A stretch of DNA of 64,000 nucleotides, from the NCBI RefSeq assembly GCF_003688725.1, contig NZ_REFP01000008.1, positions 62,001-126,000 on the forward strand, given 5' to 3'. Below are positions 1-56,295 of the stretch, one piece after another. A program made the translations under genes and the position numbers. Positions within the stretch are counted from its first letter, which is position 1, and each line of letters opens with the position of its first letter. This DNA is from Thermoactinomyces vulgaris. GTDB lineage: Bacteria; Bacillota; Bacilli; Thermoactinomycetales; Thermoactinomycetaceae. The notes beneath the pieces are model-generated. The model ran no database searches. It saw only the letters and a list, made by a program, of their open reading frames with translations, and had not been told where the DNA came from.

Positions 1-45
1 CTACCACGCTTCTTTTAACTCCTTAATCTTGACCCTCTTTCATGT

Positions 46-70
46 GACCAGGAATTGCCTGGTCTTTTTT
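46..70 (+). terminator. Rho-independent terminator of a gene upstream of the window
   Basis: A 7-bp stem GACCAGG / CCTGGTC with a 5-base loop is followed by a run of six T. It would end a transcript entering from the left edge; no gene for it is visible in the window. Confidence 0.75.
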
Positions 71-128
71 CTTTTGCCATTCGTTATGATGATATTGACA
101 TAAAGAATATACCCTGAAACGAAGAGAG

Positions 129-554
129 ATGAACACCAAACCGAACGGAAGGATTGAAAAATTTATGACATATCCCCCGCTTTATCTTCAGTTTTTCCGC
201 CATTACCACAACGAAGAGTATTGGGAAGCCCATGAAGTGTTGGAGGAGTTATGGCAAACCCAACGGCACAATGATTTTTATCACGGGTTGATTCAAATTG
301 CGGCCATCATGCATCAGTTGAAGAGGGGAAAAGTACGCGGAGCCAGGAAACTTGCCATCAGTGCCCTCGGTTACCTGAAGCCGTTTGTCCCGCAAAAAGA
401 CGGCGTGGATGTGGCCGAAGTCGTCCGTTGGTTAAACGAATGTTTGCAAATTTTACCGGAAGGTGTGGAAAAAATCAGCCGGGAAGAGGTGAACCGGCTG
501 GGCATTTTGCCGTGCAAGTTGCCGGGCGAACACGATTTTAACAACAACCGCTAA
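129..554 (+). CDS. DUF309 domain-containing protein
   Basis: Small protein of 141 residues belonging to the DUF309 family. The diagnostic stretch YWEAHEVLEELWQ lies near residues 35-47, followed by an amphipathic helix with a GLIQIAA core. The family is all-helical and its histidine/glutamate pair (HEVLE) is strongly conserved; its biochemical role is not known. The ATG at 129 has only a weak GAAGAGAG upstream, and the ATG at 165 (MTYPPLY) is an equally reasonable start because most family members begin just before that segment. The gene is flanked by terminators on both sides, so it is probably transcribed alone. Confidence 0.85.
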   Translation: MNTKPNGRIEKFMTYPPLYLQFFRHYHNEEYWEAHEVLEELWQTQRHNDFYHGLIQIAAIMHQLKRGKVRGARKLAISALGYLKPFVPQKDGVDVAEVVRWLNECLQILPEGVEKISREEVNRLGILPCKLPGEHDFNNNR

Positions 555-51805: not shown

Positions 51806-52240
51806 TTAAAGCCAATGAACTTCGGCGTGTTCCACATGATTTTTGGGTTCTGTGACAATAATAACGGCAGGATAAGTGATCACCTGCGCTTGGAAAGAAT
51901 CCTTGGACGGTTCGTGTTTTTGCGCATGAACCACCAGTTTGTTGCCCTTTTGCTCCACTTTTTTCACGTCAATTTTATAGCCCGCCGTCGGCTTTTCTCC
52001 CAAACCTAAAATGACATATTTTTTGGAGTCGGCTGAAAGCAGACGGATGGATTCCCCGGGGGATTGCAGCGATTCTTGAGCTTGGTTTTGAAGTTGAGAC
52101 GGCACCTGTTCCAAAGAGACGACTTGAAAAGGGATTTCTTCCATGACCGTTCCTCCCGTGTCAGATTCTTGACCGAAGGTTGAGCAACCGGCCAGCAAAC
52201 AAAAAATAAAAACGGAGACAATGGATTTGAAAGTGTGCAT
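51806..52240 (-). CDS. PrcB-like lipoprotein
   Basis: A 144-residue lipoprotein, signal peptide with lipobox LLAGC (Cys about 19). The mature C-terminal part has YVILGLGEKPTAGYKIDVKK and VITYPAVIIVTEP, the pattern of the PrcB C-terminal domain (protease complex subunit, and small secreted relatives). Start at the ATG 52240, with GGGGTGA about 9 bases upstream. It is divergent from the XPB gene. Its protease partner is not in the window. Confidence 0.8.
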   Translation of the reverse strand: MHTFKSIVSVFIFCLLAGCSTFGQESDTGGTVMEEIPFQVVSLEQVPSQLQNQAQESLQSPGESIRLLSADSKKYVILGLGEKPTAGYKIDVKKVEQKGNKLVVHAQKHEPSKDSFQAQVITYPAVIIVTEPKNHVEHAEVHWL

Positions 52241-52348
52241 TGGTTTTTCACCCCACAATTGCTTTTATGGGATAGACGTTTTTTTATGACCGGGAGTTTC
52301 AACATTCTTTCAACCGGTCACCAATTCGGGGACAGGAGGTGAAAAGGG

Positions 52349-54007
52349 TTGGCTTTCAAACCATTGATCGTCAGGGACAATGGGATCATTCTCGCAGAAA
52401 AACGGGCTCCGGGAATTCAGGATGTGATTCAAAAACTGGATCAGTTTGCCCGGTGTGTCAAAGAAACGGATGTTTTGTACACGTACCGTTGGGATGAATG
52501 CTCCCTGTGGCAAGCCGCCGCCGACGGATCCGATCCGGACAGCCTCGTGATGTGGCTTCGACAACATGCCAAATTTCCGCTTTCTTCCGGACTGGTGCAA
52601 AAAATAAAAACGGAAATGAAACGTTTTGGTTTGATCCGGTTTGAGAAAGACAGCAAAGAGACGTTTCTTTTGATGTGCCCGGAAGAAAAGATCATTCGAC
52701 GCATCAAACAATTGTCGGAGATTATGAAATGTATTCTTCAAAAGAACAAAAATACCCTTGTGATTCCGATGGAATATCGGGGATTGCTGAAAAAGAAATG
52801 TGTTGATTGGGGTTATCCGCCTTTGGATGCCATCGGCTCTTCCGAAGGAGCACAGCTTTCCCTGCGCTTGAAAACCCACCCTTCTTTTCCCGGATTGCGT
52901 CAATACCAACAACAAGCGGTGGATGCTTTTTGCCATCCGGAGCAAAGCTGGCGGACAAGCGGGGTGATCCTGTTGCCGTGCGGCTCGGGAAAAACCGTGG
53001 TGGGCCTTGGCATTATGGAAAAGATTCAAAAAGAGACGCTGATTCTGACCCCGAATGTCACCTCCTGCCGACAATGGATCCGCGAATTGAAAGAGAAAAC
53101 CGACTTGCCGGAAGAATGGATCGGAGAGTATACATCTTTAACGAAAAACATCGCCCCGGTCACGGTCACCACGTACCAAATGTTGACCAAAAGAGACGGA
53201 AAAACGGGTGCATTTTTGCATATGCACCTTTTTTCGAAAAGAGATTGGGGACTGATCATTTATGATGAAGTGCATTTGTTGCCGGCACCGGTTTTTCGGG
53301 TCACCGCCGGCTTGCAAGCCAAAAGGAGGCTCGGGTTGACAGCGGCATTGATCCGGGAAGACGGTCGGGAAAAGGATGTATTTTCGCTCATCGGGCCGGT
53401 GATTTATGCTTCCCGGTGGAAAGAGATGGAGGAAGGGGGATGGATCTCGGAAGCGGTTTGCCATGAGGTGCGTGTTCCGCTTTCCGACTCACTGAAAGAG
53501 GTTTACCAAACCGCCGAAAAACGCCACCGGTACCGCCTGGCCGCGGAAAATCCGCTGAAACAGGAGGTCTTGCAAGAGATCTTAAAAAAACATCAGGGCG
53601 AGCAAATTTTGGTGATCGGCCAGTATGTGGATCAACTGAAAGCTTTGGCGGAGCGTTTTGACGCCCCGCTCATCACCGGTTCCACCCCGCAACCGGAACG
53701 GGAAGAGTGGTACAGGAAGTTTCGGAAAAAGGAAATCTCTGTTTTATTTGTTTCCAAGGTGGCGAATATGGCGATCGACCTGCCGGATGCGAAAGTGGCC
53801 GTTCAAGTGTCCGGAACGTTTGGTTCCCGCCAGGAAGAGGCCCAACGTTTGGGGCGGATTTTACGGCCGAAAGCAAACGGACAAAAAGCTTATTTTTATC
53901 AGCTGGTCACCCAGGACACCGTGGATCAGGAATATGCATGGCAACGCCAAACCTTTTTGCGGGAAAAAGGGTACAACTATTTCGTCGTAAAGTGGGGGGG
54001 AACATAA
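52349..54007 (+). CDS. XPB/Rad25-type DNA repair helicase
   Basis: A 552-residue SF2 helicase of the bacterial XPB group. N-terminal domain (1-170) begins PLIVRDNGIILAEKRAPG and has YTYRWDECSLWQAAADG, as in mycobacterial XPB. Motor: Walker A LLPCGSGKTVVGLG near 212, DEVH box LIIYDEVHLLPA near 305, RLGLTAAL, and motif VI EEAQRLGRILRPKANG near 505. Proposed to unwind damaged DNA in repair. TTG 52349 follows CAGGAGGTG. The stop overlaps the next start (TAATG), so it is coupled to the Helicase_C_3 partner. Confidence 0.92.
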   Translation: MAFKPLIVRDNGIILAEKRAPGIQDVIQKLDQFARCVKETDVLYTYRWDECSLWQAAADGSDPDSLVMWLRQHAKFPLSSGLVQKIKTEMKRFGLIRFEKDSKETFLLMCPEEKIIRRIKQLSEIMKCILQKNKNTLVIPMEYRGLLKKKCVDWGYPPLDAIGSSEGAQLSLRLKTHPSFPGLRQYQQQAVDAFCHPEQSWRTSGVILLPCGSGKTVVGLGIMEKIQKETLILTPNVTSCRQWIRELKEKTDLPEEWIGEYTSLTKNIAPVTVTTYQMLTKRDGKTGAFLHMHLFSKRDWGLIIYDEVHLLPAPVFRVTAGLQAKRRLGLTAALIREDGREKDVFSLIGPVIYASRWKEMEEGGWISEAVCHEVRVPLSDSLKEVYQTAEKRHRYRLAAENPLKQEVLQEILKKHQGEQILVIGQYVDQLKALAERFDAPLITGSTPQPEREEWYRKFRKKEISVLFVSKVANMAIDLPDAKVAVQVSGTFGSRQEEAQRLGRILRPKANGQKAYFYQLVTQDTVDQEYAWQRQTFLREKGYNYFVVKWGGT

Positions 54008-55845
54008 TGATGCGGGTGAGAGAGCTCCGGTATTGTTTGACTTCCTTATCCGACGCGGAACGAAAACAGATTGCAAACGCGCTGGATCTTCAAGAAGAGT
54101 CATTGGCTGCGATGGAACAGAAACTGACCGATCCCGCTTATTATCAGGATTGCCTGCAAAAGATGGACCGAAAAACGTACCGGTGGTTTTGGTCGGTCTT
54201 TTTGAAGAAGGGAAAAATAAAAAAACAAGCCCTGCATCAGGAAAAAAACCTGCCACTTTCCAAAGTGGAATATCAGCATCTGCTGGATGCGGCTTGCGGG
54301 CGGGGATGGATTTATTGCCTGCGGAACCGGCATATGGAGCGGATGTATTATGTGCCTTGGGAGATCCGGGTGGCCTGGGCCCGGTCCATTTCTGTCGCTC
54401 AGTCTCTTCGCCCATTGGATGAAGAACGCGTCATTCCTGTCCAATCCAATCCTTTGAAAGCAAGCCAGGCCTTTTTTCACTTTTTGACATCGTTAAGCCA
54501 TGAACCTTGGCTGTTGAATCGGACCGGCCATCTCTCCAAAAAAGATCTGAAAAAAATGGATGTCGAGTTGGATTTGGACGACGTTCATGCATCCTGGCCC
54601 GGCTGGTCCGGTTTTCTGCTGGAAACCGCCCGTTTGCTCGGATTGGTCACAGAGACCAAAAAACATGTTGCCGTTCATCAAACAAGGTGGAAAAGCTGGC
54701 TTTCCACCCCTTGGCCAAAAAGTGTCGGCCAATTGTATGATGCCGTTCGCCATGTCCTTTTGAAAGATCACCCGGAGCTGGACGGATTCTGCTTGATTTT
54801 GGAACAATTGCCGGCCGGAACGTGGTGGGGATTGGAACAATTCTGGCGCCGTCTTAAAACGGAGGTGCCGCTGAAGATGCCGTTTCAATTCATCAAACGG
54901 TTGCAAGAGGGGTTTATCACCCCGATGGCTTGCATGGGCTGGTTGGAGTCGGGCAGGACGGAAAAAGGAGAAACTTGTTTCCGATGGATGTCTTATCCCC
55001 CCAGGGAGTGGGTGGATCCAGGCGAAATGCCGGTCTATGTCGATCCAGCACCGGAAGTTTATGTCCCGTTTCATTTTCCGTGGGAAAAGCGTCATGAACT
55101 TTCCTTGTGGGCGGATTTTATGGGCGGGGATTACATGCTTGTGTACGAGATCAACGAAAGGTCATTGGTCAGAGGGCTCCAATACGGACGGACGGTGGAC
55201 AAGATTCTGGAAAAACTGGAAGCATGGGCGGGGGAAGTTCCGTCTTCTGTTACGGAAAGGCTCCTTGATCTCAAAAAAAGAATCGGTGCCGTCACCCTGT
55301 CAACATGGACGTGCCTGAAAATCGAAAACGATGACGTGGCAAAAGATTGGCCGGAGCGGTTGGAAGAGGCCGGCTGGGAAGTCAAAAAACTGAACGGGTC
55401 CGAGTATTTTATCAAAGAAACACCAGGGAAAGTCAGGGCCTGGCTGAAACAGCAGAACCGGGAAGCCATCATGGAAAAAAAGGAATGGTCTGGTAAAGCC
55501 GAAAACCTGGAAACCGATTTTGAGGGCATCCGGGATTGCCGGGTCGAAGTTCCGAAACCGGAGCCTGTTCCTTTGCCCAAGGCTTGGTTTTCCGGGCTCA
55601 GACCATATGGAATCAACATGGCCAGGGAAATGGTCCGGCAAAGCATTTCTCACGGATTGCCGCTTTTCATGGAGCATCAGGGGCGAAAAATGGAAGTGTA
55701 CCCGGAACATTTGCGTTATGAAAATGGCAAATGGATGATGGAGGCGCTGGTTGGAACCGAGCGAAAAAACATTCATTTGGGTGAAGTGGAAGCTTTCCAG
55801 ATGTTGCCCTCTCCTTCTGTATCGCGGGAAAATCCATTACAATAA
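54007..55845 (+). CDS. Helicase-associated protein (Helicase_C_3-like), XPB partner
   Basis: A 612-residue protein starting MMRVRELRYCLTSLSDAERK. The N-terminal half is helical with winged-helix-like segments (VEYQHLLDAACGRGWIY, WSGFLLETARLLGLV). Residues about 340-450 contain VYVDPAPEVYVPFHFPWEK and YEINERSLVRGLQYG plus ILEKLEAWAGEVPSSV, the pattern of the Helicase_C_3 domain found in large proteins encoded next to XPB in Actinobacteria. No helicase motor is present. The final 60 residues are WYL-like (MEVYPEHLRYENGKWMM). It overlaps the XPB stop, suggesting the two products form a complex. Confidence 0.8.
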   Translation: MMRVRELRYCLTSLSDAERKQIANALDLQEESLAAMEQKLTDPAYYQDCLQKMDRKTYRWFWSVFLKKGKIKKQALHQEKNLPLSKVEYQHLLDAACGRGWIYCLRNRHMERMYYVPWEIRVAWARSISVAQSLRPLDEERVIPVQSNPLKASQAFFHFLTSLSHEPWLLNRTGHLSKKDLKKMDVELDLDDVHASWPGWSGFLLETARLLGLVTETKKHVAVHQTRWKSWLSTPWPKSVGQLYDAVRHVLLKDHPELDGFCLILEQLPAGTWWGLEQFWRRLKTEVPLKMPFQFIKRLQEGFITPMACMGWLESGRTEKGETCFRWMSYPPREWVDPGEMPVYVDPAPEVYVPFHFPWEKRHELSLWADFMGGDYMLVYEINERSLVRGLQYGRTVDKILEKLEAWAGEVPSSVTERLLDLKKRIGAVTLSTWTCLKIENDDVAKDWPERLEEAGWEVKKLNGSEYFIKETPGKVRAWLKQQNREAIMEKKEWSGKAENLETDFEGIRDCRVEVPKPEPVPLPKAWFSGLRPYGINMAREMVRQSISHGLPLFMEHQGRKMEVYPEHLRYENGKWMMEALVGTERKNIHLGEVEAFQMLPSPSVSRENPLQ

Positions 55846-55863
55846 AAAGGAGGAGGGGTGTTC

Positions 55864-56295
55864 ATGGAAACACTGGACATGGCGACCATACTGCTTGAAG
55901 CATATCAATTGGCGGATAAAATCAACGAATCGCCGGAAGTCGAAGAGTACCTGCGGACCAAACGACGGCTGAGTGAAGATCAGGAAGCGCAAAAATTGAT
56001 CCGGGAATTCCACAAAGTGAAGGATCAGTTTGAAGAAGCCCAGCGGTTTGGCATCTTTCATCCCAATTATCACGAGGCCAAGGAAAAGGCGGTGAAGTGG
56101 CAGGAGAAATTACGGAAACACCCGGCCATCCATTCGTATTTGTTGGCCGAGGAACAACTGGACCGGCTGTTGCATGAAGTCTCCAGGACCATCGCACATG
56201 CCGTGTCCGAATCCGTGAAGGTGCCGGGCAATGATCCGGTTTTCCCAATCGGGGCCAAAGGTTGCGGCGGATGTGCAAGCCACTCTTCCTCTTGA
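55864..56295 (+). CDS. ylbF: YlbF family protein (RicF)
   Basis: A 143-residue helical protein with VEEYLRTKRRLSEDQEAQKL and HPAIHSYLLAEEQLDRLLHE, plus the cysteine tail KGCGGCAS that in Bacillus YlbF helps bind the Fe-S cluster of the YlbF-YmcA-YaaT complex, which affects RNase Y processing, competence and sporulation. GGAGGAGGGGTG precedes the ATG. ylbG follows after 190 bases, as in Bacillus. The partners ymcA and yaaT are not in the window. Confidence 0.93.
   Translation: METLDMATILLEAYQLADKINESPEVEEYLRTKRRLSEDQEAQKLIREFHKVKDQFEEAQRFGIFHPNYHEAKEKAVKWQEKLRKHPAIHSYLLAEEQLDRLLHEVSRTIAHAVSESVKVPGNDPVFPIGAKGCGGCASHSSS

Follow-up and report, generated by a model that had tools for sequence, protein, structure and literature searches.

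A probable XPB–p52-like module encoded by overlapping genes in Thermoactinomyces vulgaris

Results

Two overlapping genes encode XPB and a partner protein

Within a stretch of 64,000 nucleotides from Thermoactinomyces vulgaris (NCBI RefSeq assembly GCF_003688725.1, contig NZ_REFP01000008.1, positions 62,001 to 126,000 of the forward strand; termed here the window), two overlapping genes encode a helicase of the XPB family and a second protein, its partner (Table 1). A preliminary description, made from the letters of the window alone, had recognized the XPB gene, its TAATG overlap with the next gene and the 612-residue product of the latter, and all three were confirmed in place. XPB scores 725 bits against the NCBIfam equivalog NF045503 (repair_heli_XPB; cut-off 610) and matches Pfam ERCC3_RAD25_C at E 2e-46. 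Its gene starts with TTG at 52349, preceded by GGAGGTG, and stops with TAA at 54005-54007; the ATG of the partner occupies 54007-54009, and a second in-frame ATG follows at 54010.

The preliminary description did not mention that XPB itself carries an N-terminal Helicase_C_3 domain (PF13625, residues 6-131, E 2e-17). A profile of 29 XPB N-terminal domains (alignment A6: 13 from the window and its relatives, and 16 from a wide sample made up of the best 80 of 587 confirmed XPB places in named genomes) retrieves the N-terminal domains of eukaryotic XPB from the PDB at E 2e-19. The window protein is a full XPB with an N-terminal clutch domain. In one relative (G016), the XPB at L186:175-1662 is 495 aa long and, by reading, has kept the clutch and lost the segment after it; the XPB match of G003 is shortened in the same way.

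Table 1. Coordinates of the genes and domains at the XPB locus of the window
Feature	Coordinates	Strand	Basis or remarks
PrcB_C lipoprotein gene	51806-52258	-	divergent from XPB
XPB-family SF2 helicase/translocase	52349..54007	+	552 aa; NCBIfam NF045503, Pfam ERCC3_RAD25_C
XPB N-terminal domain (Helicase_C_3; p52-binding domain in TFIIH)	52364..52741	+	PF13625, residues 6-131
XPB helicase core, two RecA-like domains	52895..53989	+	ResIII 183-334, ERCC3_RAD25_C 361-547
TAATG stop-start overlap, XPB/partner	54005..54009	+	sequence
p52/Tfb2-like XPB partner with WYL-like tail	54007..55845	+	612 aa; Pfam, profiles, model
Partner N-terminal winged-helix half (about residues 2-335)	54010..55011	+	p52 match by fold only
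Partner clutch domain (Helicase_C_3), residues 338-430	55018..55296	+	PF13625, superposition, profile match to p52 clutch
Partner p8-like domain, residues 435-486 (position equivalent to the p8-binding, C-terminal domain of p52)	55309..55464	+	model match
WYL-like domain of partner, residues 535-603	55609..55815	+	fold match
YlbF/YmcA-family gene	55858..56295	+	12 nt downstream of partner; Pfam Com_YlbF E 2e-26

The partner resembles the TFIIH subunit p52

The partner had been described as carrying a Helicase_C_3 pattern and no motor, and profile searches bear out both points: PF13625 matches residues 348-439 (E 9e-10; 39.1 bits against a gathering cut-off of 34.2), and no motor family is detected by Pfam, NCBIfam or PADLOC. 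No other family exceeds its Pfam cut-off in this protein, and among nuclease families Pfam returned only single chance-level matches in the window partner and its aligned relatives. PF13625 is matched at E 0.1 or less by every aligned partner in two alignments (29/29 and 34/34). The first of these, A1, holds 29 of 30 Bacilli-type partner loci, the fragment L028 being omitted; the 30 came from 33 genomes with a partner match, three of them without a locus. The second, A4, joins the window with 33 of the 53 wide loci that contain a partner (34 rows), and leaves out the eight actinobacterial loci, three loci cut by a contig end (L085, L090, L126), the split L087, and eight that were not chosen (L069, L081, L098, L113, L125, L136, L137, L139).

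Searched against the 177,635 sequence entries of the PDB set, the 34-partner profile returned as its top six the p52/Tfb2 subunit of transcription factor IIH (TFIIH) at E 1.3e-9 to 1e-6, followed by XPB N-terminal domains from 6.4e-6, with the next unrelated entry at 0.52. The alignment extends upstream of the clutch (profile 230-450 on p52 111-368). The control profile of 29 XPB N-terminal domains retrieved no p52 from the PDB up to E 10. With the 29-partner Bacilli profile, 13 TFIIH sequences came first. Further along the chain, the p8-like profile segment aligns in register with Tfb5 chains, at E 1.2 only, and the Pfam Tfb2 family (PF03849) is matched at E 0.1 or less by 7 of the 34 aligned partners. 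As a probe of whole genomes, this eukaryote-derived family was tried and rejected, its results lying near noise with a best partner match of E 8.6e-4.

Structure models lead to the same relative. In a Foldseek search with the AlphaFold model of the window partner (predicted local distance difference test score, pLDDT, 83; predicted template modelling score, pTM, 0.66), all 22 matches with E 0.001 or less were p52-type chains of TFIIH-containing transcription/repair complexes or the p52 crystal structure; 6trs, 8ebt_D and 7o4i_2 are named p52, GTF2H4 or TFB2 in the PDB profile searches, and the other chains were called p52 from chain names, lengths and entries. VIA aligned up to 381 residues of the model with p52 (Z 8-9.9; model 2..486 on p52 17..461), so that the match runs through the p8-like region to p52 residue 461, and the partner clutch superposes on XPB N-terminal domains at 2.0-3.4 Å over 89-92 residues. 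For a partner from Thorarchaeota, modelled likewise (pLDDT 75), the first 20 Foldseek matches were also p52-type chains, and its clutch superposes on the XPB clutch at 1.2-2.1 Å over 90-94 residues (Z 14.5-16.3). The models are not entirely independent of each other: of the 22 rows in the alignment behind the Thorarchaeota model, 8 also occur in the one behind the window model.

By profile and fold, p52/Tfb2 of TFIIH is the closest known relative of the partner. In the models, the domain order is that of p52 (winged helices, clutch, p8-like end), to which the window protein adds a WYL-like domain. That the partner is p52-like is well supported by its architecture and best profile match, and the two proteins are likely to have descended from the same gene. 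The preliminary description had seen in the partner a substrate- or strand-sensing subunit, which misses this nearest relative; a strand-sensing role is possible for the WYL tail only.

The WYL-like end itself, also proposed from the sequence, stands by fold and not by Pfam, where WYL (PF13280) has no match in the window partner and is matched by 2 of 29 relatives (best E 0.0038) in one alignment and by 1 of 34 (0.0041) in the other. Model residues 535-603 match the WYL domains of BrxR and DriD at 1.4-1.8 Å over 67-69 residues (Z 9-10.3), the best being BrxR (Z 10.3, 1.4 Å over 69) and DriD with single-stranded DNA (ssDNA; Z 10.2, 1.6 Å over 68). The WYL domains of PafBC and CapW match the same residues, some of the WYL entries are bound to ssDNA, and Hfq and similar small barrels rank below them at Z about 8. 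This end occurs in Bacilli partners and, by eye, in the row of one spirochaete (L114) and in that of one deltaproteobacterium (L129). It is missing from many partners of other classes, whose profile match breaks off near position 505 of 607, before the WYL part, and the Thorarchaeota model ends in disorder. The WYL-like end is best read as an accessory part that may contact ssDNA. The Thorarchaeota partners end in a CxxCPxxxxC stretch.

Common descent and parallel origin

Several results weigh against a module of XPB and a p52-like partner. PF03849 has no match in the window partner, reaches 22.4 of the required 34.5 bits in its best relative (L118, E 6.9e-5) and never attains its cut-off, the count over the cut-off being 0 in 61 genomes. 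The Bacilli profile ranks XPB marginally ahead of p52 (5.4e-5 vs 9.5e-5), the C-terminal half scores them almost alike (p52 2.4e-8, XPB 2.8e-7), and a sequence search with just the N-terminal half yields no p52, only common winged-helix proteins at E 0.05 or worse. A profile of Thorarchaeota partners finds XPB (0.0055) and no p52. The yeast Tfb2 residues E342, R369 and F370, which PMC9557730 describes as most needed to hold Ssl2, are absent from the bacterial consensus in a by-eye reading of the alignment. Whole-chain comparison with p52 gives a root-mean-square deviation (rmsd) of 10-20 Å and a template modelling (TM) score of about 0.2-0.3, values which indicate that the domains match in order and not as one rigid shape. 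The VIA Z scores of the window model with p52 are no higher than those of the WYL rows, and in the Thorarchaeota model the p52 N-terminal half (Z 9.7, rmsd 14) is equalled by single winged-helix regulators. Of the 32 XPB-bearing genomes of the phylum described below, 4 (G250, G294, G367, G444) have stop codons within the stretch that matches the partner.

To these points belong the weaknesses of the clutch tree, which was built with 33 of the 34 A4 rows (L115, with unknown residues, was dropped). The best tree separates the partners and fungal p52 from prokaryotic and yeast XPB with a split of 100/100. It is drawn from 101 columns, however, its long branches meet and its bootstrap is unsettled, and in approximately unbiased (AU) tests three alternatives escape rejection: p52 grouped with XPB (p 0.39), a pair made up of the eukaryotic rows only (p 0.198), and placement of both these rows among the partners (p 0.465).

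The tree bears on an alternative that is compatible with the mechanism proposed below, in which the XPB N-terminal domain was duplicated in bacteria onto a winged-helix protein, giving a partner that binds XPB and resembles p52 in parallel. The clutch holds nearly all of the sequence signal, winged helices are common folds, and p52 may sit on the XPB side in the AU test; yet the broad profile places six p52 sequences above XPB, the profile of XPB N-terminal domains finds no p52, and in both models the match to p52 extends beyond the clutch in each direction, with a p8-like segment after it. We consider such a parallel origin unlikely and prefer common descent of the partner and p52. The idea that Thorarchaeota partners are closer kin of eukaryotic p52 was also examined and is unsupported by sequence, as their profile finds no p52.

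XPB and its partner co-occur across many phyla

Among the window genome and 60 relatives, 34 genomes have XPB and all 34 have the partner, which was found with the single protein in 32 and with profile A4 in G052 and G059; in G042 and G052 it does not adjoin XPB. XPB is present in 19/19 genomes from other families of the order and in only 8/23 of the family to which the window genome belongs. Of the 29 loci examined, that of the window included, 28 have the partner immediately after XPB, and L029 (G042) is the exception. Start codons for the relatives were picked no farther than 36 nt from the stop of XPB, a choice that biases exact overlaps and leaves frame adjacency unbiased.

The preliminary description asked how the pair is distributed across Bacillota, and it is kept far outside this strain: XPB occurs in 32 of 398 genomes of the phylum, and the partner in 32/32 of these. 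In two of them (G065, G291) the partner match reaches only about E 6e-6, yet adjoins XPB. The 366 genomes without XPB gave five partner matches: in G264 the partner is closely followed by an XPB gene that the contig end truncates, G380 has an orphan partner of 425 aa, and the three that remain are weak (E 1e-6 to 9e-6) and cover the winged-helix part only.

The wide scan was made with XPB alignment A3, and partners were read from the flanks. Of its best 80 loci, 53 contain a partner, which lies directly behind XPB (with a potential start codon no more than 60 nt from the stop of XPB) in 36 and nearby in 17. In the other 27 genomes, where matches inside the XPB gene were not counted, the partner lies elsewhere in 23, although in one of these (L104) it is next to XPB and cut by a contig end. 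In total, 76/80 of the best XPB genomes have a partner; it was not found in two Brachyspira (L105, L121), a cyanobacterial metagenome-assembled genome (MAG; L109) and a Methanolliviera MAG (L103). The 80 include Bacillota, Chloroflexi, Planctomycetes, Spirochaetes, Hydrogenedentes, Latescibacterota, Gemmatimonadetes and cyanobacteria, along with Actinobacteria (8) and Thorarchaeota (3). XPB and its partner are nearly always found together; the 76 genomes span many phyla, and the pair is neither strain-specific nor, as had been supposed, mainly actinobacterial.

This distribution also speaks to the prospect that the genes share an operon and their products never touch, the partner being a DNA-binding protein that acts alone. 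The 17/53 wide loci with the partner near but not directly behind XPB, the 23/27 genomes with it elsewhere (L104 apart) and the orphan of G380 would fit such independence. Against it, co-occurrence holds without linkage (76/80), and the shortened XPB of G016 kept its clutch. We regard independent action as quite improbable, and contact between XPB and its partner as the better account.

Two peculiarities of individual partners were observed. The Caldalkalibacillus partner (L087:8689-10637) spans two reading frames, through either a real break or a sequencing error, and in L116, L118, L067 and L081 the unit of clutch plus p8-like segment seems to occur twice.

Neighboring genes and a possible third subunit

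Clustering of the neighborhoods of the 80 loci yielded few recurrent neighbors, in clusters mixed with shadow reading frames. In Hydrogenedentes, an AddB-like PD-(D/E)XK protein recognized by Pfam (L074:3319-6510) is encoded directly behind XPB, and the same cluster follows XPB in L075 and L100 (by clustering; Pfam was applied to L074). An SMC/RAD50-type ATPase is found near XPB in a Chloroflexi MAG, and in a Thorarchaeota MAG a subunit of the RFC clamp loader (L072:9108-10220) lies between XPB and the p52-like gene, on a contig whose archaeal origin is suggested by two RIO kinases nearby. These neighbors in other phyla suggest a link to repair. Against this stand two observations: the AddB-like and SMC neighbors accompany XPBs whose partner lies elsewhere in the genome, and ercc3 transposon mutants of Mycobacterium tuberculosis are depleted under rifampicin, according to PMC10534295, a phenotype that leaves a transcription-linked role open.

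A search of open reading frames (ORFs) of 45-400 aa in the 80 loci, XPB excluded, brought out an ORF of 75/76 aa between XPB and the partner in two Gemmataceae loci (L081:9244-9471, L067:9303-9533). It matches the p8-like segment at E 7e-7 and 1e-6, the next best match being 0.87. Pfam finds no Tfb5 in it, only DUF2336 (E 5e-4) and DUF188. The ORF is clear in 2 of 18 genomes searched, and three weak matches (E 0.003-0.04) lie inside longer frames. Yeast Tfb5 chains have 72-76 residues and human p8 has 71, and we offer the ORF as a lead to a possible third, p8-sized subunit.

In the window, the YlbF/YmcA-family gene probably belongs to the same operon as XPB and its partner. A gene read as the same family stands behind the pair in 13/80 XPB loci, all from Bacilli, and small divergent genes that look similar by eye to the lipoprotein gene occur beside XPB in G016 and G059.

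The window genome also encodes, on contig C1, a 376-aa paralog of the winged-helix half of the partner (L171:2783-3913; profile E 1.5e-20), which has no clutch and no Pfam family and lies near genes read as aroA and qcr. Such paralogs are also found in G003, G012, G042, G052, five genomes of family f9 and Brevibacillus genomes, and G012 has one even without XPB.

We consider it very improbable that the pair is an anti-phage defence system or transcription regulator whose WYL end senses ssDNA as in BrxR, CapW and DriD and whose effector or target is XPB: the WYL fold is closest to these proteins and PafBC, PADLOC models of PbeA match XPB weakly (best E 2e-25, over motor residues 177-337) and XPB is patchy within the family of the window genome, but no PADLOC model matches the partner, many partner matches stop before the WYL part and that of Thorarchaeota ends disordered, all 19 genomes of the other families of the order have XPB, and the neighbors examined here are ordinary genes.

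Discussion

We think it probable that the two genes encode a bacterial module of XPB and a p52-like protein, and that their products likely form a complex. Within TFIIH, the clutch of p52 is reported to have the same fold as the N-terminal domain of XPB and to associate with it sheet to sheet, and the XPB ATPase is stimulated by p52 (PMC6422496); in Chaetomium, p52 with p8 is described as both enabling and limiting XPB (PMC7708078). In bacteria, the partner clutch would pair sheet to sheet with the XPB clutch, as that of p52 does, while the p8-like end would touch or position the second RecA domain, and the partner would thereby both switch on and limit the XPB ATPase. The two proteins together would then pump double-stranded DNA and open it. 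The TFIIH mechanism requires a clutch on each of the two proteins together with a p8-like end; both clutches are present here, and the models support a p8-like end. We infer that the pair may be a regulated translocase on double-stranded DNA. Less certainly, the winged helices and an ssDNA-type WYL tail might dock this motor at single-stranded DNA or at damage, with the module serving DNA repair more than transcription; a role of the translocase in repair is probable.

A broader proposal, which we advance tentatively and with slightly more doubt than belief, is that an ancient XPB–p52 translocase module persists in bacteria and Thorarchaeota, accompanied in Gemmataceae by a stand-alone p8-sized third subunit encoded between the two genes, and that TFIIH inherited its XPB arm from a module of this kind, the arm not being an invention of eukaryotes. 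Yeast XPB is scored at 297 bits by a Thorarchaeota XPB and at 246 bits by the window XPB, a difference that settles nothing.

The function of XPB in archaea and bacteria is called "more elusive" in a 2026 review (PMC13024598). A p52-like partner in the same operon would supply a direct and testable mechanism for bacterial XPB, whose role has long been open. As human disease mutations weaken the XPB-p52 contact (PMC6422496), the pair could also serve as a two-protein model for this contact, and it bears on the origin of TFIIH: a portion of what has been regarded as eukaryotic machinery may occur widely in bacteria, within reach of simple experiments. PMC3353954 states that p52 homologs had not been found in bacteria at that time, and among the open-licence papers listed (25 of 1,440 on bacterial XPB), titles and the beginnings of abstracts show none that links a bacterial XPB partner to p52, although a subscription paper or preprint may exist.

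Among known systems, PafBC, DriD, CapW and BrxR share with the window partner a C-terminal WYL fold (1.4-2.4 Å over about 70 residues), which in the partner comes after a p52-like chain and is not matched by Pfam WYL. Archaeal XPB-Bax1 is likewise an XPB with a dedicated partner; Bax1, however, is a nuclease (PMC13024598), whereas no nuclease family is recognized in the window partner.

Eight actinobacterial loci (L122, L127, L128, L130, L132, L134, L138, L140) have a partner of Helicase_C_3 type upstream of XPB and, unlike the window, at a distance of 0.3-5 kb from it; these proteins are also longer (655-942 aa when counted from the earliest potential start codon, with two of them cut). They may correspond to Rv0862c, a Helicase_C_3 partner of actinobacterial XPB. 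The six papers listed for Rv0862c mention no function for it in their titles or abstract beginnings.

The nearest comparison is with p52/Tfb2/GTF2H4 of TFIIH. The p8 and p44 subunits were sought in the window genome and stayed under their cut-offs (Tfb5 best E 1.8, Ssl1 best E 0.009), the search having covered these two and not p34, p62 or XPD. Relative to p52, the partner has an extra WYL-like domain, falls under the Pfam Tfb2 cut-off and differs at the yeast contact residues, whereas in the models its winged helices, clutch and p8-like end follow in the same order, and both proteins are paired with an XPB that bears a matching clutch.

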